Below are positions 4,104 to 64,000 of a stretch of DNA of 64,000 nt, one piece after another. The stretch's first letter is position 1. The number at the start of each line of letters is the position of its first letter. Made by a program: the position numbers and the translations under genes. A model generated the notes under the pieces. It searched no databases, was not told the DNA's origin, and saw only the letters and a list, made by a program, of their open reading frames with translations. Source of the DNA: Tupaia tana (Eukaryota > Chordata > Mammalia > Scandentia > Tupaiidae); the NCBI GenBank assembly GCA_026018925.1, contig JAKSZU010000009.1:78152408-78216407 (forward strand), in the 5' to 3' direction.

Positions 4104-5041
4104 ATGACTAGGAACAATTGCAGAGGCTCAAGAAATATGAGCAACCAACAAAAGGCCTCTCCCTCAAGGGAAATCATCAAGCCTACATCACCCACAGTCA
4201 ATACAATGGACGTCGTGGATATGTCTGATAAGGAATTCAGAATATTTGTAGTGACCAAACTAACTGAGATGGAAGAGAAAAGAGACAAGGAGCTCCAAGA
4301 GATGACTTGAAAGAAGAAATGGATACCTTAAACAAGAACCAGATGGAACTTTTAGGATTGAAGAATGTGATACAGGAAATCTAAACCTCCCTTGAAAGTA
4401 TTAAAAGTAGGTTAGACCAGGCAGAAGATCAAATCTCTAATGTAGAAGACAAAACATCTGACCTAGAAAAAAGTATCAAGAAGATTGAGAAAACAACCAT
4501 GAAAAATGAGGATAATTTACGAGGAATACTGGATACCATCAAGAGCCCCTACATCCGGATAATTGGTATTCCAGAAGAGGAAGAAAATAATAAGGGCCTA
4601 GATAATTTATTCCATGAGATCCTAGAAGAAAACTTTTCAAATCTAGAAAGGCATTCAAATATCCAGACCCAGGAAATACATAGGACCCCGGGTATCAACC
4701 CAAGAAGATCCTCTCCAAAGCACATCATAGCCAGACTGGCAAAAACAACAGACAAAGACAAGATACTAAATTTGGCAAGAGGGAAATGCCAGGTTACTTA
4801 CAAAGGTCACCCCATCAAGCTAACATCGGAAACAATGCAGGCAAGGAAAGAATGGGGAAGCATAGTCAAAGGGTTGAGTGAAAAACAATTTCAACCAAGA
4901 ATACTATACCCGTCAAAATTATCTTTCATATGGGAAAAAAAGATAAAAACATTCTCAGATAAACAAAATTTGAAGGAATTTACCAACTCCAGACCAGCTC
5001 TTCAAGAGGTTCTGAAGGGAGTACTATACCAGGAAAACTAA
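4104..5041 (+). pseudogene. L1-A ORF1 (broken)
   Basis: L1 ORF1p is an RNA-binding trimeric coiled-coil protein of the L1 RNP. The N-terminus opens at 4104 (MTRNN...MSDKEFRIF) but a stop at 4308-4310 ends it after 68 codons. Part of the coiled coil is deleted and a further in-line stop follows at about 4381. The RRM and C-terminal domain are open from 4499 to 5041 (180 codons), with IRIIGIPEEEE, RRSSPKHIIARL and FQPRILYPSKLSF. It aligns along its length with the intact 333-aa ORF1 at 38883-39884. Non-functional as read. Confidence 0.85.
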
Positions 5042-5084
5042 AAAATCAGAGACAGTTATACGAGAACAAAAAGCAACCAAGAAA

Positions 5085-17617: not shown

Positions 17618-18235
17618 TCCCCTGAAACTTCTTTTTTTTTTTTTTTTTTTTTGGTAATTCAATTAACATTCCTTCCCTCAGCAACAGCATCATCACAGCA
17701 TACAAAATGTGATCTCCCATCCAGTACACACTGCACAGTGATTCAATCATGCCCATTACAAAAAAAAAATTTCCATTACTAGTTCCTACAATCACTTCCA
17801 CCTCTCTTTCTGACCCTCTGTCCCTTCCCACCCTCCTTAACAATAGGGAACATAGATTCTGTTCAGGGTTGGATTAAGGGTGGGTCTCGTGCAGTTCCGC
17901 AATTGTAGGTGAGTCTCCATGTAATACAGTTGCAAGCAGTTTTGGTAAGCAAAAATGATTATCAGTTGATGCGGCACAGCATCCATCTTGTGACCACCGG
18001 GAATGGTGTTGTGGGGATCTGCAGCATGAGTTATCCTCGGGTATCTGGCTTCCTTAAGAATGGTGGAGTAGATCTTGTTTTTCCCTGAGGTAATGTAGGG
18101 CTGGTAACCATCATCTTCTCATTGTCCATAGGTAGAGAAAATCCTCCTATACAATATATTTTTCAATTGGTTTAAGACATCTAAAGTTTCTTTTTGTTGC
18201 TTATAGTTGCAAGTTCTTAATCCTTGTTTTCGGCT

Positions 18236-18730
18236 TCAGTTTGCCGCCTGTGGCCGGTGGCCACGCTCAGGTCCAGGGGCCACACACAGGCCCTGCGGCT
18301 GCGCACAGGCGCAGGCCCGGTGGCCACGCGCAGTCCCGGCAGCCACGCGCAGGCTCGGGGGCCACGCGCAGGCCCAGCGGCCACACGCAGGCCCTATGGC
18401 CACACGCAGATGCAGGACCGGCGGCCACGCGCAGGCACCGGCCCAGCTGCCACGCTCAGGCCCGGCGGCCATGCTCAGGCCCGGTGGCCACGCGCAGGCC
18501 AGGCGGCCACATGCAGACGCAGGCCCAGCAGCCACTTGCAGGCCCGGCGGCCACACGCAGGCGCAGGCCCGGCGGCCACACTCAGGCCCGGCGGCCACGC
18601 TCAAGCCCGGCGGCCACGTGCAGGTCCAGGGGCCACGCACAGGCACAGGCCCGGCTGCCATGCTCAGGCCTGGGGGGCCATGCGCAGGCCCGGCGGCCAC
18701 GCGCAGGCACAGGCCCGGCGGCCGCGCGCC
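18236..18730 (-). repeat. GC-rich VNTR (units ~18-25 bp)
   Basis: Tandem variants of ggccacgcgcaggcccggc on the plus strand, more than twenty in register, with occasional insertion of an extra caggcg. CpG-dense, so it forms a CpG-island-like patch in AT-rich surroundings. The long open frames on both strands (up to 287 codons) come from the stop-poor repeat. Confidence 0.95.
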
Positions 18731-19027
18731 ATCGCCGGAGAGGCGGCTGGGGCCGGGCGGCCCGGGCTGCGGAATGCTAAACAGAGCCCACCCCTGGCTG
18801 GCGCCCACTCTGGGCCGGAGAGGCAGTGGGGGCCGGGCAGCCCGGGCCGCGGAACACGAAGCAGAGCCCGCCCCAGGCGCCCCACGGACCCCGTGGGCCA
18901 GCGCCTGCCCGGCAGGCCGGCGCCCCAGAGCCCCGCGCGCGCACGGCGCCCAAAGCCCCGGTGCCCCAGAGCCCCGCGCGCGTGCGGCGCCGGTAGCCCC
19001 AGAGCCCCGCACACGCACGGCGCTGGC
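18731..19027 (-). repeat. GC-rich 5' block of the composite
   Basis: Contains two copies of a ~75-bp unit (gaatgctaaacagagcccac at 18773 and its variant gaacacgaagcagagcccg at 18852), then three copies of gccccagagccccgc(g)c near 18920, 18965 and 18995. In the element's sense strand this is the extreme 5' end, where an internal promoter would be expected. Confidence 0.85.
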
Positions 19028-19629
19028 TAGAATAATATATTTTCAAATAATGCCTCAGATACGGGGCTGATAACCAAAATACATGGGGAACTCAAGTAAC
19101 TTGCCTTCCGAAAAGCAATGATGAACCGAATTAAACAATGATGAGCCCAATTAAAAGAGTGGCAAATAAGCTGAACAGACAACTCTCTAAGAAAGACATA
19201 TGAACAACCAAAAAGCATATGAAAAAATGTTCAGCGTCCCTTAACATAAGGGAGATGCAAATCAAAACCACAATGAAATACTGCCTAATTCAAGTCAGAA
19301 TGGCTTGGATAAAAAGTAAAAAGGCATATGTGATAACAAGGCTGTGATATAAAAGGAACTCTCCTATATTGTTGGTGGGAAAGTACATTAGTATAGACAC
19401 TATGGAGAATAATATGGAGGTTCCTCGAAGACCTACAAATAGAACTACCATATGATCCAACAATTCCACTCTTAAGTATCTACCAAAGGATAGGAATACA
19501 CTCAGAAAAGTACTTGCATATCCATGTTTATTGCAGCATTATTCATAATTGCTAAAACATGAAACCAACAAAATGACCATGAACAGATGAATGGGTTGAA
19601 AATTTGGGCACATATACACTATGAAATAC
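19028..19629 (+). mobile_element. L1-B part 6: ORF2 C-terminal remnant
   Basis: Resumes after the composite and matches L1-A from about 7860 to 8410 (aataccaaaatacatggggaa-type end of the post-RT region, then ttgttggtggga). Confidence 0.85.
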
Positions 19630-38882: not shown

Positions 38883-39884
38883 TTAATTTTCTTGATACAA
38901 CACACCCTTGAGAACTTCTTGGAGATCTGGTCTGGTGTTGGTAAATTCTTTCAGGTTTTGTTTATCTGAGAATGTTCTTGTCTTTTCTTCCCACCTGAAA
39001 GATAATCTTGCCGGGTACAGTATTCTTGGCTGAAATTGCTTCTCTCGTAACACTTTGAATATATTTTCCCATTCTCTCCTCGCTCGCATTGTTTCCGATG
39101 AGAGATCTGCTGTTAGCCTGATGGGATGTCCTTTGTAGGTAACTTGATGTTTCTCTCTTGCCAATCTTAGTATCTTGTCTTTGTCTGTGGTTTTGGTCAA
39201 CCTGGCTATAATGTGTCTTGGAGAAGATCTTCTTGGGTTGATTCTATTTGGAGTCCTTTGTATTTCCTGGGACTGGATCTTTGAATGCCTCTCTAGGTTT
39301 GGAAAGTTTTCTTGCAGGATTTCATGGAATAGATTATCAATGCCCTTATGGGTCTCTTCACCTTCTGGAATGCCAATTATCCGGATATTTGGACGTTTGA
39401 TGGTATCCAGTACTTCTCGCATATCATTCTCAAATTTTTGAGCCATTTTCTCAGTCTTCATGGTGGATTTTTCTAAGCCAGCCATTTTCTCTTCTACACC
39501 TGAGATTCTATTTTCTGAATGATCTAGTCTGCTTTTAATACTTTCTAGGGAGATTTTGACTTCTTGTATTATAGCCTTCATCTCTAGCAGTTCCGTTTGA
39601 GTCTTTTGTAAAGTGTGTAATTCCTCTTTTAGATCTTGCAAGAATTTCCTCATCTCCTGGAACTCGGCAACTTCTTTCTCCTTTCTCTTTAGCAGTTCAT
39701 TATCTCTCTTTTCTTCCATCTCTGTTAGCTTCGACATTACGAATGCTCTAAATTCCTTATCAGACATTTCCATGACTTTCACCGAACTGCTTGTGGATGA
39801 AGAAGAGTTACTCTTTTCCCGTGGAGGAGAGGTATTTTCTCGTTTTCCCATATTTCTCGTGATCCGGCGGTGATTTCTTGTCAT
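38883..39884 (-). CDS. Intact L1-type ORF1 protein (333 aa) of a half-L1
   Basis: ORF1p is a trimeric RNA-binding chaperone that packages L1 RNA in cytoplasmic RNPs. Visible: basic N-terminus (MTRNHRRITRNMGKR), a Ser-rich linker (residues 26-34), a long heptad coiled coil (about 45-150, rich in E/K/L), an RRM (about 160-250; IRIIGIPEGEE, RRSSPRHIIARL) and a C-terminal domain (about 255-325; YKGHPIRLTADLSSETMRAR, FQPRILYPARLSFRW). Length is close to the 338 aa usual in human L1 ORF1p. The start at 39884 matches the broken ORF1 of L1-A. No internal stops. No ORF2 follows. It may be translatable; whether it acts on its own or L1 RNA is unknown. Confidence 0.9.
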   Translation of the reverse strand: MTRNHRRITRNMGKRENTSPPREKSNSSSSTSSSVKVMEMSDKEFRAFVMSKLTEMEEKRDNELLKRKEKEVAEFQEMRKFLQDLKEELHTLQKTQTELLEMKAIIQEVKISLESIKSRLDHSENRISGVEEKMAGLEKSTMKTEKMAQKFENDMREVLDTIKRPNIRIIGIPEGEETHKGIDNLFHEILQENFPNLERHSKIQSQEIQRTPNRINPRRSSPRHIIARLTKTTDKDKILRLAREKHQVTYKGHPIRLTADLSSETMRARREWENIFKVLREKQFQPRILYPARLSFRWEEKTRTFSDKQNLKEFTNTRPDLQEVLKGVLYQEN

Positions 39885-40129
39885 CTGATGAATGGCGTGT
39901 TTCTTTCAAATTCTTGAAGTTAAGCCTCAATGTACAGGAACAAGCAGACAGAGGTGTTCTAGAATCTGCTTGCCGTTCTGTTGTGATCGCTGGTGCAGCA
40001 GATTCAGTAGATATTGGGTGGAGATACAAGAAAAAGGAAAATGAAAAAGAGAGAGAGAAACAACAACAAAAAGAGAGAAAAAAAGACAAAAAATAAAAAA
40101 ATTGTAATTACTTTTCTTTCTTGTTTTTT

Positions 40130-40641
40130 TTTTTAAAGAAAAAAATCACAAAACAGAAAACCTAGTTCCCAGTATCCATGAGGAGTCTGCTCAGAGAAGG
40201 GCTCAACTCTCCTGCCTGGGAGGAAGAAGCAGAAGGGATTATTAACAAAACAATGGGAGGAGCAGAGCGCCAGAGAAAAACTTTGCCTTTAAAAAAATCA
40301 TAAAAAGGAAAAATTACCAAAAAACAAAGATGAGGAGACAGGAGCAGAGAGAGACAGAGACCTCAGAGACACAGTGACAGAGATAGAAGGCCAGAGGGGC
40401 TCCCTACCACACTAGCTCTGCTTGCTGGAGGCTGAATTATGAGTAGAAAATCTTCATTTCTCCTGTTCCCTGAAAAATCTAGTTCCCAGTATCCATGAGG
40501 AGTCTGCTCAGAGAAGGGCTCAACTCTCCTGCCACACTAGCTCTGCTTGCTGGAGGCTGAATTATGAGTAGAAAATCTTCATTTCTCCTGTTCCCTGAAA
40601 AATCTAGTTCCCAGTATCCATGAGGAGTCTGCTCAGAGAGC
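40130..40641 (-). promoter_or_regulatory. 5'UTR of half-L1 copy B: 125-bp monomers plus spacer
   Basis: On the minus strand this reads as one and a half to two 125-bp monomers (tatccatgaggagtctgctc recurs on the plus strand at 40169, 40490 and 40615) and a 240-bp spacer (40195-40435) of GA-rich sequence on the plus strand. Monomer and spacer are the same sequences, in the same order and sense, as the satellite at 50094-64000. By position this should be the internal promoter. Confidence 0.85.
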
Positions 40642-41407: not shown

Positions 41408-41639
41408 GGGACCAGCAGTTAGCGTAATGGCTATGTCACTGGATTCCCACGTAGTCGACTGCGGTTCGAGTCCCAGACCCGGTGGCTTAAACTCACGCTG
41501 GGTGTGTGTGTGTGCGTGCCCAAAATCCCGAGAGGAGAATGGAGGAGAAGGGATTGCGGCATGGCCATCCCCCCTGGGGGGTGATTTCTCGCTTTTTATC
41601 TCTCTGTCTCTCTCTGTCTTTCTTGTGAGTGCACACACC
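41408..41639 (+). mobile_element. Long-type SINE, 5' part (split by an ERV)
   Basis: Well-preserved copy with A-box tagcgtaatggcta and a perfect pol III B-box ggttcgagtcc (41463-41473). It breaks at cacacc (41634-41639), where the ERV inserted, and resumes at 44925. SINE target duplication: aaacagcctat left and right (44978-44988). Confidence 0.95.
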
Positions 41640-42222
41640 TGCGGGAGGCTGCGCACAAGCGAGTCTGCCGAGGTTTCTCAGAGAGCAAACAATTGCCATG
41701 ATTGGCCACTAGAATCCCTCAGATTTGCATATCTGGCATCTCATGATTGGTCCAAAAGCAACCAATCGTAACCCACCACTTACAACCAATCACGGCCCAC
41801 CGTTTACAACCAATCACGGCCCACCATTTGCAACCAATCATAACCCACCTTTGCGATCCACCAATGTGTATATAACCACCATGCCTGGCCCACAATAGCC
41901 AGACGACCAGGAAGACAATGAAGACAACATGGAAGACCAGGAAGATGACGACCCTGGAGAGCCTGCAGAGCTGAAACACCGCACAGTCTCCAGAAGACCC
42001 TGAAGAGCTGTAACACTACATCGTCTCCAGACGAGCCTGAAGAGCTGTGACACCGCATCGTCTCCGTGCTGTACCGTGCTGCCCACAATAAACAGACGAC
42101 ACTGTGTCGTCTCCGAGCTGTGACACTGTGCCGCTTGTTCCGGCTCTCACTCCTTCTCTCAGGAAACCTGTTCGACTGTCCCACCAGGTCGGGACACGTG
42201 GCTCCCGAACCAGGTCGGGACA
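41640..42222 (+). mobile_element. ERV 5' LTR (583 bp)
   Basis: Begins TG and ends CA, preceded by the 6-bp target duplicate cacacc. U3 has an ATTTGCAT octamer (41723-41730) and four 24-bp-spaced CCAAT boxes in direct repeats (41760, 41784, 41808, 41832), then TATATAA (41869-41875). Downstream come three ~39-bp repeats of a cctgaagagctg motif, AATAAA (42087-42092) and a U5 ending in a primer-site-like motif. I count about 17 differences from the 3' LTR over 583 bp, mostly transitions. Confidence 0.95.
41760..41855 (+). promoter_or_regulatory. ERV U3 CCAAT-repeat enhancer-like array
   Basis: Four aaccaatc motifs at exact 24-bp spacing (41760, 41784, 41808, 41832), each followed by a variant of acggcccacc or gtaaccc. 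They lie upstream of TATATAA at 41869. The 3' LTR has the same array. CCAAT boxes are bound by NF-Y-type factors in other promoters. Function here is inferred. Confidence 0.75.
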
Positions 42223-42224
42223 AG

Positions 42225-42243
42225 TGGCGCTCGAACAAGGGAC
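42225..42243 (+). promoter_or_regulatory. ERV primer-binding site, tRNA-Lys type
   Basis: tggcgctcgaacaagggac, two bases after the LTR end. It resembles the tRNA-Lys3 primer site (tggcgcccgaacagggac) with one substitution and one inserted base. Confidence 0.8.
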
Positions 42244-42269
42244 CTGAGTACGAAGGATCCAGTGAAGAG

Positions 42270-42490
42270 CACCCAAGGAGGGGACGGCAGAGAATCGTCC
42301 CGAGATAGGACGGCAGAGAATCGTCCGAGGAGGGGACAGCAGAGAATCGTCCGAGGAGGGGATGGCAGAGAATCGTCCGAGGAGAGGACGGCAGAGAATC
42401 GTCCCGAGATAGGACGGCAGAGAATCGTCCGAGGATAGGACAGCAGAGAATCGTCTGAGAGGGAACGGCAGAGAATCGTCCCGGTGAGTA
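42270..42490 (+). promoter_or_regulatory. ERV leader: eight tandem hairpin repeats and splice-donor-like site
   Basis: Eight copies of (g)gacggcagagaatcgtc(c) at 24-28 bp spacing. In most, GGACG and CGTCC can pair around a 9-nt loop. The array ends directly in cccggtgagtaac (GTGAGT at about 42484), a strong 5' splice-site match. It lies between the primer site and gag, where retroviral packaging and dimerisation signals are found. Confidence 0.7.
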
Positions 42491-42526
42491 ACAAAGATTG
42501 CTTACTTATAAGTAATAAAGGTAATA

Positions 42527-42886
42527 ATGGGACAAGTAATAAGGGTAATAATGGGACAAGAGCTTAGCCAGCACGAACAAGAGCTCAGTCAGCATGAACA
42601 AGAGCTTAGTCAGCACAAACAAGAGCTTAGTCAGCACGAACAAAAGCTTAGTCAGCACGAATTATTTGTTCAGGGCTTGAAAGAAGCCCTCAAGACACGG
42701 GGAGTTAAGATTAAGATTAAGCAGTTGCTCTCCTTTTTTGATTTCTTAAAAGAAGTTTGCCCATGGTTCCCTCAAGAAGGAACCATAGATGAGAAAATGT
42801 GGAAAAGAGTACGGGACGCTTTAAAAGATTATTATACCACATTCGGCCCAGAAAAAGTTCCCGTGACTACTTTTTTTGTACTGTAA
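42527..42886 (+). pseudogene. gag: ERV Gag matrix fragment
   Basis: 119 codons. MGQ at the start, and again nine codons later, gives a myristoylation-type N-terminus. Five tandem 7-residue repeats (ELSQHEQ type, 21-bp DNA units, about 42552-42660) precede a betaretrovirus-like matrix core (about residues 50-110; [10 protein letters not shown] is diagnostic). The frame ends at 42884-42886, just past a run of seven T (42870-42876), and the downstream Gag-like sequence lies in another frame, so a length change in that run probably separates them. Matrix normally directs Gag to membranes. Incomplete here. Confidence 0.85.
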
Positions 42887-44021
42887 CTTAATAGACGAAA
42901 TTCTCAGGCTCCACACCAGTGAACCAAAAATTGTCGCTATGGTCACTAAGGGAGAGCAGATCATGCAAAATGATCAACCCCAGGAGGAGGCTATAGCCGC
43001 CTCAGATCTAACCATGGATTCTAAAATTGAAAAAGAACAGGGAGAGGATCTTATTTCCCTAGATAGTGAGGAAGAAGTTAAAAGCCCTGAAGGTGAGACA
43101 AAACCCAAAATATCCAAAAAACTAAAAAATAAAAACAACCTTAAGTCTCTACAAGAGCCAAAGAAAAATGAGTCAAAAACTGAGTCAGTTTTTTGGACAA
43201 TGTGCTGCTGTTTATCATATTTCTATATGGTCTCTGCTTGGGGTGGTTATGTGTTTATCATCAACCTTATTCCACTGCACCTGTTTGTGTTGTTACTGAT
43301 GCAGAGATATAGCAAAAGAGTCTACATAGCATATAGCATTTTCTACATTGTGGGTTTAATATTATCCATGCAGATACTTTTTGTATCACAATTAGAGAAA
43401 CTAAAAACCAATACAGACAAAGAAACAAAACTAGTTCAGGGGTCACATATGACAGACTTTGAGACATTCCCTGTTATGGAAACTATAGATCCCCAAGAAC
43501 AGGTTTGGCGCCGTCACAGTAGGTTTATGGTAAAAGAGACTAAGGCGGCAGTTGCCCAATACGGAGCTACTGCTCCATATACCTTAGCTATAGTTGAAGC
43601 TATCACCAAGGGCTGGCTCATACCATCTGATTGGCAAACGTTAGCCCGAGCTATCCTTCTTAAATTTCAAAACTCTCAGCCTTTGTGTTTCCCTAACCGC
43701 AGCTACAGCTGCCGGCTCCACTGGCTAGGGTTATTACGCCAAGTCACTGAGGGTCTTATCTCAAACCAACTAGATTCCCCGGCTGAGGTGGTTCTTCAAA
43801 ATAGACGAGGTTTAAATCTCCTCCTGGCAGAACAGGGAGGTCTCTGTCTTGCTTTACAGGAACGCTGCTTTTACGCCAACAAGTCCGGCATCGTTCGTGA
43901 CAACATACATCAACTCCAACGATCTCTCCAACAACGTAGAAAACAACTCGCCGATGGTCTGCCTGGAACGGTCTCCTCCCTTTCCCGCTCCCCCTCCTTG
44001 GCCCATCCATTGGCTTTTTAA
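42876..44021 (+). pseudogene. ERV Gag-STT3B-capsid-Env chimeric ORF (381 codons)
   Basis: One open frame holding four unlike parts. Residues 1-103: Gag, including an acidic phosphoprotein-like stretch ([13 protein letters not shown]). Residues about 104-170: a hydrophobic segment I recognise as host STT3B ([28 protein letters not shown]). Residues about 195-270: a capsid N-terminal-like piece ([15 protein letters not shown]). Residues about 285-360: Env transmembrane ectodomain with the LQNRRGL region and a CX6C motif (C324/C331) lacking the usual following Cys. The last ~20 residues look out of frame, since the membrane-anchor-like sequence is in another frame from about 43960. No protease or polymerase. 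Translation is unproven; any product would lack most viral functions. Confidence 0.85.
43185..43385 (+). other. STT3B: Captured host segment: STT3B membrane-domain cDNA
   Basis: STT3B is a catalytic subunit of ER oligosaccharyltransferase, which N-glycosylates proteins. About 67 codons (SVFWTMCCC to SMQILFV) match, by recall, the multi-pass membrane region of STT3B nearly residue for residue, and fit STT3B better than its paralogue STT3A. The catalytic WWDYG part of the gene is not included. No intron is visible, and the segment is in frame with Gag-like sequence on both sides. Left junction is near 43180 (both sides could encode K-T-x-S), right near 43386. Near-identity to a mammalian gene implies late capture or strong similarity at capture. 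Confidence 0.87.
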
Positions 44022-44140
44022 TTGTTTGCTCACTGGGACCTGTTATATTTAATAGGCGCATGTCATTCCTCAAACAACAAATTGACTCACTTATGGAAGA
44101 TCAACACCCCTATACTGATCTTGCCTGAGACGCTGAATCA
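43690..44140 (+). pseudogene. env: ERV env transmembrane-subunit remnant
   Basis: Gamma-type Env TM signature ([29 protein letters not shown]) in the frame of the chimeric ORF up to about 43955. The membrane anchor and tail-like sequence (43960-44130) lies in other frames, so the reading frame is broken. The surface subunit, fusion peptide and start are missing. The CX6CC motif has lost its second Cys, which normally makes the surface-transmembrane disulfide. Confidence 0.8.
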
Positions 44141-44329
44141 GTTAGCCAAAGACGGGTAAGAGAGTCTGATGAACCCAATAACTCTTCAGTCCTTCCACCT
44201 AAGACAGGAGGCCCATCATAGCTATGGGACTCTCCAATGATGGGTAAGAATGGACTTATGGTTCTATAAATGACTCCAACCTAAGACAGGCACGATTCCC
44301 CCAGGCCTTTACCTCATCTCTCAAAACAG

Positions 44330-44341
44330 AGAAGGGGGATA
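44330..44341 (+). promoter_or_regulatory. ERV polypurine tract
   Basis: agaagggggata directly before the 3' LTR TG. This is the plus-strand primer position in retroviruses. Confidence 0.85.
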
Positions 44342-44924
44342 TGTGGGAGGCTGCGCACGAGCGAGTCTGCCGAGGTTTCTCAGAGAGCAAACAATTGCCA
44401 TGATTGGCCACTAGAATCCCTCAGATTTGCATATCTGGCACCTCATGATTGGTCCAAAAGCAACCAATCATAACCCACCACTTACAACCAATCACGGCCC
44501 ACCATTTACAACCAATCACGGCCCACCATTTGCAACCAATCATAACCCACCTTTGCGATCCACCAATGTGTATATAACCACCATGCCTGGCCCACAATAG
44601 CCAGACGACCAGGAAGACAACGAAGACAACACAGAAGACCAGGAAGACGACGACCCTGGAGAGCCTGCAGAGCTGAAACACCGCACAGTCTCCAGACGAC
44701 CCTGAAGAGCTGTAACACTACATTGTCTCCAGACGAGCCTGAAGAGTTGTGACACCGCGTCGTCTCCGTGCTGTACCGTGCTGCCCACAATAAACAGACG
44801 ACACTGTGTCGTCTCTGAGCTGTGACACTGTGCCGCTTGTTCCGGCTCTCACTCCTTCCCTCAGGAAACCTGTTCGACTGTCCCACCGGGTCGGGACACG
44901 TGGCGCCCGAACCAGGTCGGGACA
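44342..44924 (+). mobile_element. ERV 3' LTR (583 bp)
   Basis: Same length as the 5' LTR, starts TGTGGGAGG, ends GGGACA, followed by the target duplicate cacacc (44925-44930). TATATAA at 44571-44577 and AATAAA at 44789-44794. It keeps the intact tggcgcccgaac primer-site-like motif near its end (about 44901), where the 5' LTR has one change. Confidence 0.95.
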
Positions 44925-44980
44925 CACACCTTATAGCGAAAACCTCTCCAAAAAAAAAAAAAAAGAAAGAAAGAAAGAAA
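44925..44980 (+). mobile_element. SINE 3' part after the ERV
   Basis: cacaccttatagcgaaaacc then an A-run and (gaaa)n. It completes the SINE begun at 41408. Confidence 0.95.
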
Positions 44981-50093: not shown

Positions 50094-53000
50094 GGAGCCA
50101 TTCTCTGAGAAGATTCCTCATGGAAACTGGGAACTAGATATTTCAGGGCACAGGAGAAATGAAGATTTTCTACTCATAATTCAGCCTCCAGCAAGCAAAG
50201 GCAGGAGAGTTGAGCCATTCTCTGAGAAGATTCCTCATGGAAACTGGGAACAAGATATTTCAGGGCACAGGAGAAATGAAGATTTTCTACTCATAATTCA
50301 GCCTCCAGCAAGCAAACCTAATGTGGCAGGAGAGTTGAGCCATTCTCTGAGAAGATTCCTCATGTAAACTGGGAACTAGATATTTCAGGGCACAGGAGAA
50401 ATGAAGATTTTCTACTCATAATTCAGCCTCTAGCAAGCAAAGCTAGTGTGGCAGGAGAGTTGAGCCATTCTCTGAGAAGATTCCTCATGGAAACTGGGAA
50501 CTAGATATTTCAGGGCACAGGAGAAATGAAGATTTTCTACTCATAATTCAGCCTCCAGCAAGCAAAGCTAGTGTGGCAGGAGAGATGAGCCATTCTCTGA
50601 GAAGATTCCTCATGGAAACTGGGAACTAGATATTTCAGGGCACAGGAGAAATCAAGATTTTCTACTCATAATTCAGCCTCCAGCAAGCAAACCTAGTGTG
50701 GCAGGAGAGTTGAGCCATTCTCTGAGAAGATTCCTCATGGAAACTGGGAACCAGATATTTCAGGGCACAGGAGAAATGAAGATTTTCTACTCATAATTCA
50801 GCCTCCAGCAAGCAAAGCTAGTGTGGCAGGAGAGTTGAGCCATTCTCTGAGAAGGATCCTCATGGAAACTCTGAACTAGATATTTCAGGGCACAGGAGAA
50901 ATGAAGATTTTCTAATCATAATTCAGCCTCCATCAAGCAAAGTTAGTGTGGCAGGAGAGTTGAGCCATTCTCTGAGAAGATTCCTCATGGAAACTGGGAA
51001 CAAGATATTTCAGGCCACAGGAGAAATGAAGATTTTCTACTCATAATTCAGCCTCCAGCAAGCAAAGCTAGTGTAGTAGGGAGCCAATCAGGCCTTCTAT
51101 CTCTGTCTCTTTGTCTCTGAGGTCTCTGTCTCTCTCTGATCCTGTCTCCTCATTTTTTTTTTTGGTAATTTTTCTTTTTTACGATTTTTTTAAAGGTAGA
51201 GTTTCTCTCTGGCTCTCAGCTCCATCTTGTGTTTTGTTAATAATCCCTTCTGCTCCTTTCTCGCAGGCAGGAGAGTTGAGCCATTCTCTGAGAAGATTCC
51301 TCATGGAAACTGGGAACTAGATATTTCAGGGCACAGGAGAAATGAAGATTTTCTACTCATAATTCAGCCTCCAGCAAGCAAAGCTAGTGTGGCAGGAGAG
51401 TTGAGCCATTCTCTGAGAAGATTCCTCATGGAAACTGGGAACTAGATATTTCAGGGCACAGGAGAAATGAAGATTTTCTACTCATAATTCAGCCTCCAGC
51501 AAGCAAACCTAGTGTGGCAGGAGAGTTGAGCCATTCTCTGAGAAGATTCCTCATGGAAACTGGGAACTAGATATTTCAGGGCACAGGAGAAATGAAGATT
51601 TTCTACTCATAATTCAGCCTCCAGCAAGCAAACCTAGTGTGGCAGGAGAGTTGAGCCATTCTCTGAGAAGATTCCTCATGGAAACTGGGAACTAGATATT
51701 TCAGGGCACAGGAGAAATGAAGATTTTCTACTCATAATTCAGCCTCCAGCAAGCAAACCTAGTGTGGCAGGAGAGTTGAGCCATTCTCTGAGAAGATTCC
51801 TCATGGAAACTGGGAACTAGATATTTCAGGGCACAGGAGAAATGAAGATTTTCTACTCATAATTCAGCCTCCAGCAAGCAAACCTAGTGTGGCAGGAGAG
51901 TTGAGCCACTCTCTGAGAAGATTCCTCATGGAAACTGGGAATTAGATATTTCAGGGCACAGGAGAAATCAAGATTTTCTACTCATAATTCAGCCTCCAGC
52001 AAGCAAACCTAGTGTGGCAGGAGAGTTGAGCCATTCTCTGAGAAGATTCCTCATGGAAACTGGGAACTAGATATTTCAGGGCACAGGAGAAATCAAGATT
52101 TTCTACTCATAATTCAGCCTCCAGCAAGCAAAGCTAGTGTGGCATTAGAGTTGAGCCATTCTCTGAGAAGATTCCTCATGGAAACTGGGAACTAGATATT
52201 TCAGGGCACAGGAGAAATGAAGATTTTCTACTCATAATTCAGCCCCAAGCAAGCAAAGCTAGTGTGGTAGGGAGCCCCTCTGGCCTTCTAACTCTGTCTC
52301 TTTGTCTCTGAGGTCTCTGTCTCTCTCTGCTTCTGTCTCCTCATTTTTTTTTTGGTAATTTTTCCTTTTTACGATTTTTTTAAGGTAGAGTTTCTCTCTG
52401 GATCTCAGCTCCATCTTTTGTTTTGTTAATAATCCCTTCTGCTCCTTTCTCGCAGGCAAGAGAGTTGAGCCATTCTCTGAGAAGATTCCTCATGGAAATT
52501 GGGAACTAGATATTTCAGGGCACAGGAGAAATGAAGATTTTCTACTCATAATTCAGACTCCAGCAAGCAAACCTAGTGTGGCATTAGAGTTGAGCCATTC
52601 TCTGAGAAGATTCCTCATGGAAACTGGGAACTAGATATTTCAGGGCACAGGAGAAATGAAGATTTTCTACTCATAATTCAGCCTCTAGCAAGCAAAGCTA
52701 GTGTGGTAGGGAGCCCCTCAGGCCTTCTATCTCTGTCTCTTTGTCTCTGAGGTCTCTGTCTCTCTCTGCTTCTGTCTCCTCATTTTTTTTTTGGTAATTT
52801 TTCCTATTTACGATATTTTTTTAAGGTAGAGTTTCTCTCTGGATCTCAGCTCCATCTTTTGTTTTGTTAATAATCCCTTCTGCTCCTTTCTCGCAGGCAG
52901 GAGAGTTGAGCCATTCTCTGAGAAGACTCCTCATGGAAACTGGGAACTAGATATTTCAGGGCACAGGAGAAATGAAGATTTTCTACTCATAATTCAGACT

Positions 53001-53895
53001 CCAGCAAGCAAACCTAGTGTGGCAGGAGAGTTGAGACATTCTCTGAGAAGATTCCTCATGGAAACTGGGAACTAGATATTTCAGGGCACAGGAGAAATGA
53101 AGATTTTCTACTCATAATTCAGCCTCCAGCAAGCAAACCTAGTGTGGCAGGAGAGTTGAGCCATTCTCTGAGAAGATTCCTCATGGAAACTGGGAACTAG
53201 ATATTTCAGGGCACAGGAGAAATGAAGATTTTCTACTCATAATTCAGCCTCCAGCAAGCAAAGCTAGTGTCGCAGGAGAGTTGAGCCATTCTCTGAGAAG
53301 ATTCCTCATGGAAACTGGGAACTAGATATTTCAGGGCACATGAGAAATGAAGATTTTCTACTCATAATTCAGCCTCCAGCAAGCAAACCTAGTGTGGCAG
53401 GAGAGTTGAGCCATTCTCTGAGAAGATTCCTCATGGAAACTGGGAACTAGATATTTCAGGGCACAGGAGAAATGAAGATTTTCTACTCATAATTCAGCCT
53501 CCAGCAAGCAAACCTAGAGTGGCAGGAGAGTTGAGCCATTCTCTGAGAAGATTCCTCATGGAAACTGGGAACTAGATATTTCAGGGCACAGGAGAAATGA
53601 AGATTTAATACTCATAATTCAGCCTCCAGCAAGCAAACCTAGTGTGGCAGGAGAGTTGAGCCATTCTCTGAGAAGATTCCTCATGGAAACTGGGAAGTAG
53701 ATATTTCAGGGACAGGAGAAATGAAGATTTTCTACTCATAATTCAGCCTCCAGCAAGCAAAGCTAGTGTGGCAGGAGAGTTGAGCCATTCTCTGAGAAGA
53801 TTCCTCTTGGAAACTGGGAACTAGATATTTCAGGGCACAGGAGAAATGATGATTTTCTACTCATAATTCGGCCTCCAGCAAGCAAATCTAGTGTG

Positions 53896-54085
53896 GTAGG
53901 GAGCCCCTCAGGCCTTCTATCTCTGTCTCTTTGTCTCTGAGGTCTCTGTATCTCTCTGCTTCTGTCTACTCATATATTTTTTGGTAATTTTTCCTTTTTA
54001 CGATTTTTTTTAAGGTAGAGTTTCTCTCTGGGTCTCAGCTCCATCTTTTGTTTTGTTAATAATCCCTTCTGCTCCTTTCTCGCAG
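53896..54085 (+). repeat. Representative satellite spacer (190 bp)
   Basis: gtagggagcc, a CT-rich stretch (tctctgtctctttgtctctg), a T-run, ggtaatttttccttttta, tttctctctgggtctcagct, gttttgttaataatccctt, and a pyrimidine tract ending tttctcgcag. Reverse-complement equivalent of 40195-40435 in half-L1 copy B. The 66-70-codon minus-strand frames in spacers (such as 52259-52459 and 62278-62478) arise from this sequence and are not genes. Confidence 0.9.
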
Positions 54086-55210
54086 GCAAGAGAGTTGAGC
54101 CATTCTCTGAGAAGATTCCTCATGGAAACTGGGAACTAGATATTTCAGGGCACAGGAGAAATGAAGATTTTCTACTCATAATTCAGACTCCAGCAAGCAA
54201 ACCTAGTGTGGCATTAGAGTTGAGCCATTCTCTGAGAAGATTCCTCATGGAAACTGGGAACTAGATATTTCAGGGCACAGGAGAAATGAAGATTTTCTAC
54301 TCATAATTCAGCCTCCAGCAAGCAAACCTAGGGTGGCAGGAGAGTTGAGCCATTCTCTGAGAAGATTCCTCATGGAAACTGGGAACTAGATATTTCAGGG
54401 CACAGGAGAAATGAAGATTATCTACTCATAATTCAGCCTCCAGCAAGCAAAGCTAGTGTGGCAGGAGAGTTGAGCCATTCTCTGAGAAGATTCCTCATGG
54501 AAACTGGGAACTAGATATTTCAGGGCAAATGAGAAATGAAGATTTTCTACTCATAATTCAGCCTCCAGCAAGCAAACCTAGTGTGGCAGGAGAGTTGAGC
54601 CATTCTCTGAGAAGATTCCTCATGGAAGCTGGGAACTAGATATTTCAGGGCACAGGAGAAATGAAGATTTTCTACTCATAATTCAGCCTCCAGCAAGCAA
54701 AGCTAGTGTGGCAGGAGAGTTGAGCCATTCTCTGAGAAGATTCCTCATGGAAACTGGGAACAAGATATTTCAGGGCACAGGAGAAATGAAGATTTTCTAC
54801 TCATAATTCAGCCTTCAGCAAGCAAACCTAGTGTGGCAGGAGAGTTGAGCCACTCTCTGAGAAGATTCCTCATGGAAACTGGGAACTAGATATTTCAGAG
54901 CACAGGAGAAATCAAGATTTTCTACTCATAATTCAGCCTCCAGCAAGCAAAGCTAGTGTGGCAGGAGAGTTGAGCCATTCTCTGAGAATATTCCTCATGG
55001 AAACTGGGAACTAGATATTTCAGGGCACAGGAGAAATGAAGATTTTCTACTCATAATTCAGCCTCCAGCAAGCAAACCTAGTGTGGCAGGAGAGTTGAAA
55101 CATTCTCTGAGAAGATTCCTCTTGGAAACTGGGAACTAGATATTTCAGGGCACAGGAGAAATGATGATTTTCTACTCATAATTCGGCCTCCAGCAAGCAA
55201 ATCTAGTGTG

Positions 55211-57779
55211 GTAGGGAGCCCCTCAGGCCTTCTATCTCTGTCTCTTTGTCTCTGAGGTCTCTGTATCTCTCTGCTTCTGTCTCCTCATTTTTTTTTTGGT
55301 AATTTTTCCTTTTTACGATTTTTTTTAAGGTAGAGTTTCTCTCTGGATCTCAGCTCCATCTTTTGTTTTGTTAATAATCCCTTCTGCTCCTTTCTCGCAG
55401 GCAAGAGAGTTGAGCCATTCTCTGAGAAGATTCCTCATGGAAACTGGGAACTAGATATTTCAGGGCACAGGAGAAATGAAGATTTTCTACTCATAATTCA
55501 GACTCCAGCAAGCAAACCTAGTGTGGCATTAGAGTTTAGCCATTCTCTGAGAAGATTCCTCATGGAAACTGGGAACTAGATATTTCAGGGCACAGGAGAA
55601 ATGAAGATTTTCTACTCATAATTCAGCCTCCAGCAAGCAAACCTAGGGTGGCAGGAGAGTTGAGCCATTCTCTGAGAAGATTCCTCATGGAAACTGGGAA
55701 CTAGATATTTCAGGGCACAGGAGAAATGAAGATTATCTACTCATAATTCAGCCTCCAGCAAGCAAAGCTAGTGTGGCAGGAGAGTTGAGCCATTCTCTGA
55801 GAAGATTCCTCATGGAAACTGGGAACTAGATATTTCAGGGCAAATGAGAAATGAAGATTTTCTACTCATAATTCAGCCTCCAGCAAGCAAACCTAGTGTG
55901 GCAGGAGAGTTGAGCCATTCTCTGAGAAGATTCCTCATGGAAACTGGGAACTAGATATTTCAGGGCACAGGAGAAATGAAGATTTTCTACTCATAATTCA
56001 GCCTCCAGGAAGCAAAGCTAGTGTGGTAGGGAGCCCCTCAGGCCTTCTATCTCTGTCTCTTTGTCTCTGAGGTGTCTGTCTCTCTCTGCTTCTGTCTCCT
56101 CATTTTTTTTTGGTAATTTTTCCTATTTATGATATTTTTTAAAGGTAGAGTTTCTCTCTGGATCTCAGCTCCATCTTTTGTTTTGTTAATAATCCCTTCT
56201 GATCCTTTCTCACAGGCAGGAGAGTTGAGCCATTCTCTGAGAAGACTCCTCATGGAAACTGGGAACTAGATATTTCAGGGCACAGGAGAAATGAAGATTT
56301 TCTACTCATAATTCAGACTCCAGCAAGCAAACCTAGTGTGGCAGGAGAGTTGAGCCATTCTCTGAGAAGATTCCTCATGGAAACTGGGAACTAGATATTT
56401 CAGGGCACAGGAGAAATGAAGATTTTCTACTCGTAATTCAGCCTCCAGCAAGCAAACCTAGTGTGGCAGGAGAGTTGAGCCATTCTCTGAGAAGATTCCT
56501 CATGGAAACTGGGAACTAGATATTTCAGGGCACAGGAGAAATGAAGATTTTCTACTCATAATTCAGCCTCCAGCAAGCAAAGCTAGTGTCGCAGGAGAGT
56601 TGAGCCATTCTCTGAGAAGATTCCTCATGGAAACTGGGAACTAGATATTTCAGGGCACATGAGAAATGAAGATTTTCTACTCATAATTCAGCCTCCAGCA
56701 AGCAAACCTAGTGTGGCAGGAGAGTTGAGCCATTCTCTGAGAAGATTCCTCATGGAAACTGGGAACTAGATATTTCAGGGCACAGGAGAAATGAAGATTT
56801 TCTACTCATAATTCAGCCTCCAGCAAGCAAACCTAGTGTGGCAGGAGAGTTGAGCCATTCTCTGAGAAGATTCCTCATGGAAACTGGGAACTAGATATTT
56901 CAGGGCACAGGAGAAATGAAGATTTAATACTCATAATTCAGCCTCCAGCAAGCAAACCTAGTGTGGCAGGAGAGTTGAGCCATTCTCTGAGAAGATTCCT
57001 CATGGAAACTGGGAACTAGATATTTCAGGGAACAGGAGAAATGAAGATTTTCTACTCATAATTCAGCCTCCAGCAAGCAAAGCTAGTGTGGCAGGAGAGT
57101 TGAGCCATTCTCTGAGAAGATTCCTCTTGGAAACTGGGAACTAGATATTTCAGGGCACAGGAGAAATGATGATTTTCTACTCATAATTCGGCCTCCAGCA
57201 AGCAAATCTAGTGTGGTAGGGAGCCCCTCAGGCCTTCTATCTCTGTCTCTTTGTCTCTGAGGTCTCTGTATCTCTCTGCTTCTGTCTACTCATTTTTTTT
57301 TTGGTAATTTTTCCTTTTTACGATTTTTTTTAAGGTAGAGTTTCTCTCTGGATCTCAGCTCCATCTTTTGTTTTGTTAATAATCACTTCTGCTCCTTTCT
57401 CGCAGGAAGAGAGTTGAGCCATTCTCTGAGAAGATTCCTCATGGAAACTGGGAACTAGATATTTCAGGGCACAGGAGAAATGAAGATTTTCTACTCATAA
57501 TTCAGACTCCAGCAAGCAAACCTAGTGTGGCATTAGAGTTGAGCCATTCTCTGAGAAGATTCCTCATGGAAACTGGGAACTAGATATTTCAGGGCACAGG
57601 AGAAATGAAGATTTTCTACTCATAATTCAGCCTCCAGCAAGCAAACCTAGTGTGGCAGGAGAGTTGAAACATTCTCTGAGAAGATTCCTCTTGGAAACTG
57701 GGAACTAGATATTTCAGGGCACAGGAGAAATGATGATTTTCTACTCATAATTCGGCCTCCAGCAAGCAAATCTAGTGTG
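55211..57779 (+). repeat. 2,569-bp satellite segment, first copy
   Basis: Spacer order 5-8-3 monomers. Spacers at 55211, 56026 and 57216 recur exactly 2,569 bp later at 57780, 58595 and 59785, with shared private variants (ccaggaagcaaagc, gtgtcgcagg, atttaatactc, cagggaacagg). A recent large duplication within the array. Confidence 0.9.
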
Positions 57780-60348
57780 GTAGGGAGCCCCTCAGGCCTT
57801 CTATCTCTGTCTCTTTGTCTCTGAGGTCTCTGTATCTCTCTGCTTCTGTCTCCTCATTTTTTTTTTGGTAATTTTTCCTTTTTACGATTTTTTTTAAGGT
57901 AGAGTTTCTCTCTGGATCTCAGCTCCATCTTTTGTTTTGTTAATAATCCCTTCTGCTCCTTTCTCGCAGGCAAGAGAGTTGAGCCATTCTCTGAGAAGAT
58001 TCCTCATGGAAACTGGGAACTAGATATTTCAGGGCACAGGAGAAATGAAGATTTTCTACTCATAATTCAGACTCCAGCAAGCAAACCTAGTGTGGCATTA
58101 GAGTTTAGCCATTCTCTGAGAAGATTCCTCATGGAAACTGGGAACTAGATATTTCAGGGCACAGGAGAAATGAAGATTTTCTACTCATAATTCAGCCTCC
58201 AGCAAGCAAACCTAGGGTGGCAGGAGAGTTGAGCCATTCTCTGAGAAGATTCCTCATGGAAACTGGGAACTAGATATTTCAGGGCACAGGAGAAATGAAG
58301 ATTATCTACTCATAATTCAGCCTCCAGCAAGCAAAGCTAGTGTGGCAGGAGAGTTGAGCCATTCTCTGAGAAGATTCCTCATGGAAACTGGGAACTAGAT
58401 ATTTCAGGGCAAATGAGAAATGAAGATTTTCTACTCATAATTCAGCCTCCAGCAAGCAAACCTAGTGTGGCAGGAGAGTTGAGCCATTCTCTGAGAAGAT
58501 TCCTCATGGAAACTGGGAACTAGATATTTCAGGGCACAGGAGAAATGAAGATTTTCTACTCATAATTCAGCCTCCAGGAAGCAAAGCTAGTGTGGTAGGG
58601 AGCCCCTCAGGCCTTCTATCTCTGTCTCTTTGTCTCTGAGGTGTCTGTCTCTCTCTGCTTCTGTCTCCTCATTTTTTTTTGGTAATTTTTCCTATTTATG
58701 ATATTTTTTAAAGGTAGAGTTTCTCTCTGGATCTCAGCTCCATCTTTTGTTTTGTTAATAATCCCTTCTGATCCTTTCTCACAGGCAGGAGAGTTGAGCC
58801 ATTCTCTGAGAAGACTCCTCATGGAAACTGGGAACTAGATATTTCAGGGCACAGGAGAAATGAAGATTTTCTACTCATAATTCAGACTCCAGCAAGCAAA
58901 CCTAGTGTGGCAGGAGAGTTGAGCCATTCTCTGAGAAGATTCCTCATGGAAACTGGGAACTAGATATTTCAGGGCACAGGAGAAATGAAGATTTTCTACT
59001 CGTAATTCAGCCTCCAGCAAGCAAACCTAGTGTGGCAGGAGAGTTGAGCCATTCTCTGAGAAGATTCCTCATGGAAACTGGGAACTAGATATTTCAGGGC
59101 ACAGGAGAAATGAAGATTTTCTACTCATAATTCAGCCTCCAGCAAGCAAAGCTAGTGTCGCAGGAGAGTTGAGCCATTTTCTGAGAAGATTCCTCATGGA
59201 AACTGGGAACTAGATATTTCAGGGCACATGAGAAATGAAGATTTTCTACTCATAATTCAGCCTCCAGCAAGCAAACCTAGTGTGGCAGGAGAGTTGAGCC
59301 ATTCTCTGAGAAGATTCCTCATGGAAACTGGGAACTAGATATTTCAGGGCACAGGAGAAATGAAGATTTTCTACTCATAATTCAGCCTCCAGCAAGCAAA
59401 CCTAGTGTGGCAGGAGAGTTGAGCCATTCTCTGAGAAGATTCCTCATGGAAACTGGGAACTAGATATTTCAGGGCACAGGAGAAATGAAGATTTAATACT
59501 CATAATTCAGCCTCCAGCAAGCAAACCTAGTGTGGCAGGAGAGTTGAGCCATTCTCTGAGAAGATTCCTCATGGAAACTGGGAACTAGATATTTCAGGGA
59601 ACAGGAGAAATGAAGATTTTCTACTCATAATTCAGCCTCCAGCAAGCAAAGCTAGTGTGGCAGGAGAGTTGAGCCATTCTCTGAGAAGATTCCTCTTGGA
59701 AACTGGGAACTAGATATTTCAGGGCACAGGAGAAATGATGATTTTCTACTCATAATTCGGCCTCCAGCAAGCAAATCTAGTGTGGTAGGGAGCCCCTCAG
59801 GCCTTCTATCTCTGTCTCTTTGTCTCTGAGGTCTCTGTATCTCTCTGCTTCTGTCTACTCATTTTTTTTTGGTAATTTTTCCTTTTTACGATTTTTTTTA
59901 AGGTAGAGTTTCTCTCTGGATCTCAGCTCCATCTTTTGTTTTGTTAATAATCACTTCTGCTCCTTTCTCGCAGGAAGAGAGTTGAGCCATTCTCTGAGAA
60001 GATTCCTCATGGAAACTGGGAACTAGATATTTCAGGGCACAGGAGAAATGAAGATTTTCTACTCATAATTCATACTCCAGCAAGCAAACCTAGTGTGGCA
60101 TTAGAGTTGAGCCATTCTCTGAGAAGATTCCTCATGGAAACTGGGAACTAGATATTTCAGGGCACAGGAGAAATGAAGATTTTCTACTCATAATTCAGCC
60201 TCCAGCAAGCAAACCTAGGGTGGCAGGAGAGTTGAGCCATTCTCTGAGAAGTTTCCTCATGGAAACTGGGAACTAGATATTTCAGGGCACAGGAGAAATG
60301 AAGATTATCTACTCATAAGTCAGCCTCCAGCAAGCAAAGCTAGTGTGG
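57780..60348 (+). repeat. 2,569-bp satellite segment, second copy
   Basis: Near-identical to 55211-57779. Differences I can see are few, for example cattttctg at about 59176 against cattctctg, and a shorter T-run in the spacer at 59785. After the third spacer this copy continues with 8 monomers where the first has 3, so the duplicate ends inside that block. Confidence 0.88.
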
Positions 60349-63300
60349 CAGGAGAGTTGAGCCCTTCTCTGAGAAGATTCCTCATGGAAACTGGGAACTA
60401 GATATTTCAGGGCAAATGAGAAATGAAGATTTTCTACTCATAATTCAGCCTCCAGCAAGCAAACCTAGTGTGGCAGGAGAGTTGAGCCATTCTCTGAGAA
60501 GATTCCTCATGGAAACTGGGAACTAGACATTTCAGGGCACAGGTGAAATGAAGATTTTCTACTCATAATTCAGCCTCCAGCAAGCAAACCTAGTGTGGCA
60601 GGAGAGTTGAGCCATTCTCTGAGAAGATTCCTCATGGAAACTGGGAACTAGATTTTTCAGGGCACAGGAGAAATGAAGATTTAATACTCATAATTCAGCC
60701 TCCAGCAAGCAAACCTAGTGTGGCAGGAGAGTTGAGCCATTCTCTGAGAAGATTCCTCATGGAAACTGGGAACTAGATATTTCAGGGAACAGGAGAAATG
60801 AAGATTTTCTACTCATAATTCAGCCTCCAGCAAGCAAAGCTAGTGTGGCAGGAGAGTTGAGCCATTCTCTGAGAAGATTCCTCTTGGAAACTGGGAACTA
60901 GATATTTCAGGGCACAGGAGAAATGATGATTTTCTACTCATAATTCGGCCTCCAGCAAGCAAATCTAGTGTGGTAGGGAGCCCCTCAGGCCTTCTATCTC
61001 TGTCTCTTGGTCTCTGAGGTCTCTGTATCTCTCTGCTTCTGTCTCCTCATTTTTTTTTGGTAATTTTTCCTTTTTACGATTTTTTTAAGGTAGAGTTTCT
61101 CTCTGGATCTCAGCTCCATCTTTTGTTTTGTTAATAATCCCTTCTGCTCCTTTCTCGCAGGCAAGAGAGTTGAGACATTCTCTGAGAAGATTCCTCATGG
61201 AAACTGGGAACTAGATATTTCAGGGCACAGGAGAAATGAAGATTTTCTACTCATAATTCAGACTCCAGCAAGCAAACCTAGTGTGGCATTAGAGTTGAGC
61301 CATTCTCTGAGAAGATTCCTCATGGAAACTGGGAACTAGATATTTCAGGGTACAGGAGAAATGAAGATTTTCTACTCATAATTCAGCCTCCAGCAAGCAA
61401 ACCTAGGGTGGCAGGAGAGTTGAGCCATTCTCTGAGAAGATTCCTCATGGAAACTGGGAACTAGATATTTCAGGGCACAGGAGAAATGAAGATTATCTAC
61501 TCATAATTCAGCCTCCAGCAAGCAAAGCTAGTGTGGCAGGAGAGTTGAGCCATTCTCTGAGAAGATTCCTCATGGAAACTGGGAACTAGATATTTCAGGG
61601 CAAATGAGAAATGAAGATTTTCTACTCATAATTCAGCCTCCAGCAAGCAAACCTAGTGTGGCAGGAGAGTTGAGCCATTCTCTGAGAAGATTCCTCATGG
61701 AAGCTGGGAACTAGATATTTCAGGGCACAGGAGAAATGAAGATTTTCTACTCATAATTCAGCCTCCAGCAAGCAAAGCTAGTGTGGCAGGAGAGTTGAGC
61801 CATTCTCTGAGAAGATTCCTCATGGAAACTGGGAACAAGATATTTCAGGGCACAGGAGAAATGAAGATTTTCTACTCATAATTCAGCCTCCAGCAAGCAA
61901 ACCTAGTGTGGCAGGAGAGTTGAGCCACTCTCTGAGAAGATTCCTCATGGAAACTGGGAACTAGATATTTCAGAGCACAGGAGAAATCAAGATTTTCTAC
62001 TCATAATTCAGCCTCCAGCAAGCAAAGCTAGTGTGGCAGGAGAGTTGAGCCATTCTCTGAGAATATTCCTCATGGAAACTGGGAACTAGATATTTCAGGG
62101 CACAGGAGAAATGAAGATTTTCTACTCATAATTCAGCCTCCAGCAAGCAAACCTAGTGTGGCAGGAGAGTTGAAACATTCTCTGAGAAGATTCCTCTTGG
62201 AAACTGGGAACTAGATATTTCAGGGCACAGGAGAAATGATGATTTTCTACTCATAATTCGGCCTCCAGCAAGCAAATCTAGTGTGGTAGGGAGCCCCTCA
62301 GGCCTTCTATCTCTGTCTCTTTGTCTCTGAGGTCTCTGTATCTCTCTGCTTCTGTCTCCTCATTTTTTTTTGGTAATTTTTCCTTTTTACGATTTTTTTT
62401 AAGGTAGAGTTTCTCTCTGGATCTCAGCTCCATCTTTTGTTTTGTTAATAATCCCTTCTGCTCCTTTCTCGCAGGCAAGAGAGTTGAGCCATTCTCTGAG
62501 AAGATTCCTCATGGAAACTGGGAACTAGATATTTCAGGGCACAGGAGAAATGAAGATTTTCTACTCATAATTCAGACTCCAGCAAGCAAACCTAGTGTGG
62601 CATTAGAGTTGAGCCATTCTCTGAGAAGATTCCTCATGGAAACTGGGAACTAGATATTTCAGGGCACAGGAGAAATGAAGATTTTCTACTCATAATTCAG
62701 CCTCCAGCAAGCAAACCTAGGGTGGCAGGAGAGTTGAGCCATTCTCTGAGAAGATTCCTCATGGAAACTGGGAACTAGATATTTCAGGGCACAGGAGAAA
62801 TGAAGATTATCTACTCATAATTCAGCCTCCAGCAAGCAAAGCTAGTGTGGCAGGAGAGTTGAGCCATTCTCTGAGAAGATTCCTCATGGAAACTGGGAAC
62901 TAGATATTTCAGGGCAAATGAGAAATGAAGATTTTCTACTCATAATTCAGCCTCCAGCAAGCAAACCTAGTGTGGCAGGAGAGTTGAGCCATTCTCTGAG
63001 AAGATTCCTCATGGAAACTGGGAACTAGATATTTCAGGGCACAGGTGAAATGAAGATTTTCTACTCATAATTCAGCCTCCAGCAAGCAAACCTAGTGTGG
63101 CAGGAGAGTTGAGCCATTCTCTGAGAAGTTTCCTCATGGAAACTGGGAACTAGATTTTTCAGGGCACAGGAGAAATGAAGATTTAATACTCATAATTCAG
63201 CCTCCAGCAAGCAAACCTAGTGTGGCAGGAGAGTTGAGCCATTCTCTGAGAAGATTCCTCATGGAAACTGGGAACTAGATATTTCAGGGAACAGGAGAAA

Positions 63301-64000
63301 TGAAGATTTTCTACTCATAATTCAGCCTCCAGCAAGCAAAGCTAGTGTGGCAGGAGAGTTGAGCCATTCTCTGAGAAGATTCCTCTTGGAAACTGGGAAC
63401 TAGATATTTCAGGGCACAGGAGAAATGATGATTTTCTACTCATAATTCGGCCTCCAGCAAGCAAATCTAGTGTGGTAGGGAGCCCCTCAGGCCTTCTATC
63501 TCTGTCTCTTGGTCACTGAGGTCTCTGTATCTCTCTGCTTCTGTCTCCTCATTTTTTTTTTGGTAATTTTTCCTTTTTACGATTTTTTTAAGGTAGAGTT
63601 TCTCTCTGGATCTCAGCTCCATCTTTTGTTTTGTTAATAATCCCTTCTGCTCCTTTCTCGCAGGCAAGAGAGTTGAGCCATTCTCTGAGAAGATTCCTCA
63701 TGGAAACTGGGAACTAGATATTTCAGGGCACAGGAGAAATGAAGATTTTCTACTCATAATTCAGCCTCCAGCAAGCAAACCTAGTGTGGCAGGAGAGTTG
63801 AGCCATTCTCTGAGAAGATTCCTGATGGAAGCTGGGAACTAGATATTTCAGGGCACAGGAGAAATGAAGATTTTCTACTCATAATTCAGCCTCCAGCAAG
63901 CAAAGCTAGTGTGGCAGGAGAGTTGAGCCATTCTCTGAGAAGATTCCTCATGGAAACTGGGAACAAGATATTTCAGGGCACAGGAGAAATGAAGATTTTC

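Follow-up and report, generated by a model that had tools for sequence, protein, structure and literature searches.

Structure of the provirus and its surroundings

Within the 64,000-nucleotide stretch of Tupaia tana DNA that was analysed (the window), positions 41640-44924 hold a 3285-bp defective betaretrovirus-like provirus, which is the only copy in the window. It is bounded by two LTRs of 583 bp each (41640-42222 and 44342-44924), both of which start with TG and finish with CA. The two LTRs are identical at 566 of 583 positions, leaving 17 differences. A 6-bp target-site duplication, CACACC, is found on both flanks (41634-41639 and 44925-44930). The paired TG...CA LTRs together with this duplication identify the element as an endogenous retrovirus. 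The integration site lies inside a host SINE: the joined flanks match other SINE copies in the window, the best at 90% over 266 columns, and uninterrupted copies of the same SINE are present elsewhere in the window. All features of the provirus given here and below are on the forward strand.

Directly 3' of the 5' LTR, a stretch read by eye (42223-42245) resembles a primer-binding site, which we take to be of the lysine-tRNA type. A purine-rich stretch resembling a polypurine tract, also read by eye, stands immediately 5' of the 3' LTR (44326-44341). The untranslated leader contains eight 26-bp tandem repeats (42276-42481) in a region with a strong predicted RNA fold; for 42223-42529 the computed fold has a z value of -3.5 and is better than those of 100 out of 100 shuffled sequences. 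As a guess, the repeats in this strongly folded stretch might be an expanded packaging element. A primer-binding-site-like sequence appears to be duplicated at the LTR ends (42183-42240 and 44885-44924), with 2.2 copies of a 26-bp repeat at 42183-42240, as though the border of the LTR had at some time shifted beyond the primer site.

The viral coding parts retained are the Gag matrix, the start of the capsid and part of the Env transmembrane (TM) subunit; the bulk of the viral genome is absent, and the Pfam matches in the scanned frames of the provirus include no family of protease, polymerase or integrase. The matrix (p10 family; 42554-42883) matches PF02337 with an E value of 2.4e-23 and is 73% identical to relative P0123 over 71 columns and 72% identical to the Gag of simian retrovirus 8 over 78 columns. 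Its frame stops at 42884-42886 and the homology carries on in another frame, so that the start of the matrix and the chimeric frame described next are separated in the present copy. Near the matrix start, a 21-bp repeat in five copies (42556-42661) encodes QELSQHE heptads, and just upstream of it the context of the start codon is contained in a 24-bp duplication (42510-42560).

An open frame of 384 codons (42867-44021) joins a Gag remnant, a piece of a host gene, the N-terminal capsid and part of Env TM. Open runs in 2000 first-order Markov copies of 42530-44342 reached 233 codons at most. The first part of this frame (42870-43184) is an acidic, phosphoprotein-like region of Gag that follows the matrix; it is 36% identical to the Molossus Gag P0089 over 107 columns, the match being weak beyond its first part. 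The host piece comes next (43185-43385). Gag then resumes (43386-43664) with SQLEKLKT, which is followed by the N-terminal capsid (PF00607, E value 1.3e-13; 64% identity to P0121 over 69 columns). SQLEKLKT resembles the QLExLKTG of relatives, found at about residue 238 in P0089. When 12 of the 82 Gag relatives were taken into a BLAST alignment, the capsid part was aligned with all 12 and SQLEKLKT itself with P0132 alone. The Env TM remnant (43764-43958) covers profile positions 448-513 of 560 in PF00429 (TLV_coat), with an E value of 2.1e-28. Capsid and Env TM are joined somewhere between 43665 and 43763, with the remainder of gag and the bulk of env lost.

A PF02337 matrix combined with a PF00607 capsid makes the element betaretrovirus-like. 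This matrix and capsid homology is shared with the betaretrovirus-like Gag proteins of bats and primates (Molossus, Saccopteryx and simian retroviruses), but the Tupaia copy has neither a late domain nor pol. Among named Gag proteins, those of bats come nearest. Viruses of this kind cross species.

Several other features were observed in the window. A tandem satellite with a 125-bp unit, arranged in blocks with irregular spacers, occupies 50095-64000 and extends to the right window end; an inverted piece of it, two copies long, stands alone at 40403-40639. On the reverse strand, an L1 ORF1 frame of 340 codons is open (38883-39905). Among the best 120 of 242 protein matches, its closest protein shows 97% identity over 87% and is labelled Streptomyces narbonensis; that assembly is probably contaminated with DNA of the Tupaia host or a near relative. 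A second, fragmented L1 copy (4385-7937) has matches to ORF1, endonuclease and reverse transcriptase. A GC-rich minisatellite region (18254-19023) has long open frames on both strands, and in the one frame of it that was scanned (18207-19067, forward strand) Pfam gave no match. Rfam gave no match at gathering score across the 64 kb.

A segment of STT3B in place of the Gag late-domain region

A reading made beforehand from the letters alone (the sequence-only reading) had recognised, between Gag-like sequences of an LTR-bounded provirus, an intronless in-frame stretch of about 67 codons from the oligosaccharyltransferase gene STT3B. The results bear this out. Positions 43185-43385 translate to 67 residues without a stop, in sense orientation and in frame with viral sequence on both sides, and protein searches identify it as STT3B and not as a viral family. 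PF02516 (STT3) matches the segment with an E value of 1.7e-17 and is the sole Pfam family at E values up to 0.01. The top match among sequences of solved structures is human STT3B (6s7t_A, residues 245-311; E value 1.6e-35). The segment is identical to human STT3B at 64 of 67 residues, against 42 of 67 for STT3A, and at the 23 residues that discriminate between the two paralogs it is of STT3B type 22 times and of STT3A type never. STT3A and a generic viral membrane protein are ruled out by these identities and by the Pfam result, which gives STT3 alone. The boundaries are correct to within roughly a codon: the initial serine (TCA, 43185-43187) may be of viral origin, and past 43385 the frame reads the Gag-like SQLEKLKT.

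The segment consists of membrane helices and excludes the catalytic region, as the same reading had held. In the bear STT3B P0005 it corresponds to residues 123-189, downstream of DNE (from residue 97) and upstream of SVSE (273) and WWDYG (448), presumably the catalytic motifs of the enzyme; all three fall outside the segment. Hydropathy of the chimeric frame gives two hydrophobic segments. Structure prediction, with an alignment of 17 relatives chosen by hand, places helices at segment residues 2-19, 21-42 and 44-64 (mean pLDDT 66.8). Judged by its predicted content, the segment can hardly act in glycosylation, and we consider it a fossil.

Of the 82 Gag relatives, 8 show both of the anchors that were used to compare this region, and each of these 8 has a PPPY motif 42-46 residues ahead of the second anchor. 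PPPY motifs have a late-domain role. In the provirus, the STT3B segment directly precedes the second anchor, indicating that at least the PPPY part of Gag is gone. The STT3B piece is present in none of the 82 relatives, and the reading of it as an old, established element of Gag was rejected on this ground. Host sequence has thus replaced viral sequence in sense orientation: as read from the Gag alignments, the patch is a substitute for the late-domain part rather than a simple addition. The weak upstream Gag match reaches about residue 142 of P0089. The predicted loss is at least about 44 residues and perhaps about 95 by the P0089 alignment, the upstream edge being uncertain.

The age of the patch was considered from its substitutions. 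It carries three amino-acid changes relative to the human and bear form (L33, I52 and L65), which are rare among STT3 relatives, with 0 occurrences in 119, 1 in 118 and 0 in 115, respectively. The K2P divergence of the LTRs is 0.030, from which about 3.0 substitutions are expected in 201 bp along one lineage since integration. The comparison is one of amino-acid changes against the human and bear form, synonymous changes being left aside; on that footing, the three changes fit neutral decay and a capture near the time of integration. We also considered that the patch was kept for a function: a Gag lacking its late domain and anchored in the membrane by the STT3B helices would act as a dominant negative against related betaretroviruses in the germline, and several copies or populations would carry it. 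We regard this as improbable.

A putative exon junction and the proposed route of capture

Whether the segment came from a spliced message was approached through STT3 proteins of other species. Of the 120 proteins taken in, 119 match the segment, and the one without STT3 is the Gag P0089. Two of the 119 contain a copy that ends exactly at segment residue 48 and continues with G. One is the raccoon dog STT3B model P0091, which follows the segment as far as residue 48 and from there jumps, through G-K, to a stretch further along the protein; the other is the nematode model P0001, in which the first of two STT3 copies stops at residue 48 with G next. P0001, the top match, was also considered as a chimera and rejected, as it is a duplicated STT3. 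A copy reading through residue 48 is present in 118 of the 119 proteins, as expected for spliced products. Among these are P0002 and P0003, from contigs of about 1 kb, and their reading through would argue against a junction if the source were genomic DNA and not transcript. As a separate observation, P0002 (a 988-bp contig) has two stretches of STT3B in reversed order, the later one (HILVCTFPAGLWFC) standing immediately before the earlier (IAIVPGYISR), an arrangement that a back-spliced or chimeric transcript would give.

The two models that end at residue 48 place a putative junction between exons at 43329-43330, one base into the codon of residue 49, where the provirus has no intron. Because of these models from other species, the segment probably crosses an exon junction without its intron and would hence be derived from mRNA. 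The two ends of the patch also seem to fall within exons: the models P0016 and P0027 start at VKS, and P0002 and P0003 break after AAAG. The segment would then start about six codons into one exon and end within the next.

We consider it highly likely that the locus is a defective germline betaretrovirus-like provirus in which a 201-nt patch of gag was copied from spliced host STT3B mRNA by template switching. By chance, an STT3B mRNA would have been packaged into a virion or a virus-like particle. While the minus strand was being made, reverse transcriptase would have switched, within gag, from the viral template to the STT3B mRNA, copied about 201 nt of it and gone back to viral RNA at a point further upstream in gag, so that the late-domain part of Gag was exchanged, in frame, for three membrane helices. 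Capsid and Env TM would have been joined by a separate loss. The chimeric product would then have integrated into the SINE in a germ cell, near the time of capture, and decayed since. Two template switches are the simplest explanation because the breakpoints seem to lie inside exons and inside gag, and because the patch is short, internal and in sense orientation.

The same arrangement is less readily obtained by the classical transduction known for oncogenes, in which a provirus in or next to STT3B gives a read-through, spliced chimeric RNA that is packaged and recombines again with viral RNA. That route is the textbook one, as summarised in PMC4299795, and its outcome, too, is a host piece without introns, in sense orientation and in frame, together with viral deletions. 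However, the 5' join apparently falls about six codons into an exon instead of at a splice acceptor, and the STT3B piece is a short internal patch with gag on both sides. We therefore find this route unlikely.

Alternatively, L1 activity or templated break repair could have inserted an STT3B cDNA after the provirus had integrated; in favour of this, an open L1 ORF1 frame lies nearby (38883-39905). Against such late insertion, the sequence read contains no poly(A) and no flanking duplication at the patch, and the patch is internal, replaces part of gag and keeps both reading frames; we rate it as very unlikely. A processed pseudogene made by L1 was rejected, the piece being an internal protein fragment whose 3' edge, in the sequence read, lacks a poly(A). 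A chimera of proviral sequence and STT3B cDNA formed in the library or the assembly seems least probable, to the point of being barely credible: the reading frame is kept across both joins, none of the 12 closest STT3 stretches is identical to the patch, and the provirus around it is otherwise regular, with LTRs and a target duplication.

Related elements were sought in several collections. Viral contigs searched with the capsid-Env, STT3B and matrix pieces and with two LTR patterns gave no relative, and hence no second copy or helper virus among them; one scan of a collection of genome contigs with the STT3B piece gave no match. By precomputed domain lists, no protein among the best 120 of 525 matches combined STT3 and Gag domains.

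Precedents and meaning

No report of an STT3B-carrying endogenous retrovirus was found in the openly licensed literature, which is weak evidence of absence. Acute transforming retroviruses carry gag-onc fusions. The Tupaia provirus resembles them in its in-frame fusion of host sequence to gag, in its loss of viral genes and in its presumable dependence on a helper. Unlike them, its host patch brings no growth-promoting gene and no host start, stop or catalytic part, is flanked by gag on both sides and is found in a germline copy.

Closer precedents are found among crocodilian endogenous retroviruses, where CrocERV29 (KIT-ligand) and CrocERV31 (nectin3) are germline proviruses with captured host mRNA, as is the case proposed here, and where the nectin3 lineage lost env in exchange (PMC4299795). 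With these precedents, germline capture as such is not new; the remark of the sequence-only reading that an N-glycosylation enzyme is an unusual passenger stands. The crocodilian elements carry long open reading frames, for which the authors report purifying selection (PMC4299795). The Tupaia patch, by contrast, is a 201-nt internal piece in frame within Gag, seen in one copy, in a mammal.

Maize Bs1 is likewise an LTR element holding a fragment of a membrane-protein gene, that of a plasma membrane proton ATPase, with a hybrid open reading frame formed by transduction (PMC5408686, PMC7264820). It is a plant element with several captured genes, whereas the present case is a vertebrate betaretrovirus-like provirus. 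The mechanism proposed for the STT3B patch is that of LTR-mediated retroposition, in which a co-packaged mRNA is copied by template switching, often only in limited part (Tan et al. 2016, as summarised in PMC5408686). The latter paper states that L1-linked retrotransposition dominates in mammals (PMC5408686).

Capture of host mRNA by germline retroviruses is already known, and the Tupaia provirus adds a case in which the passenger, STT3B, is an unusual one. Retroviral captures of host mRNA are known mostly from tumour viruses, in which selection for growth hides how often and in what manner capture takes place. A short, apparently neutral, in-frame patch from a housekeeping gene in the germline would come near to a record, free of selection, of how template switching joins viral RNA and a co-packaged host mRNA. 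It suggests that a search of proviruses for host fragments crossing exon junctions could give a count of such captures in mammalian genomes, and that viruses of this kind now and then take up host messages and deposit them in the germline.
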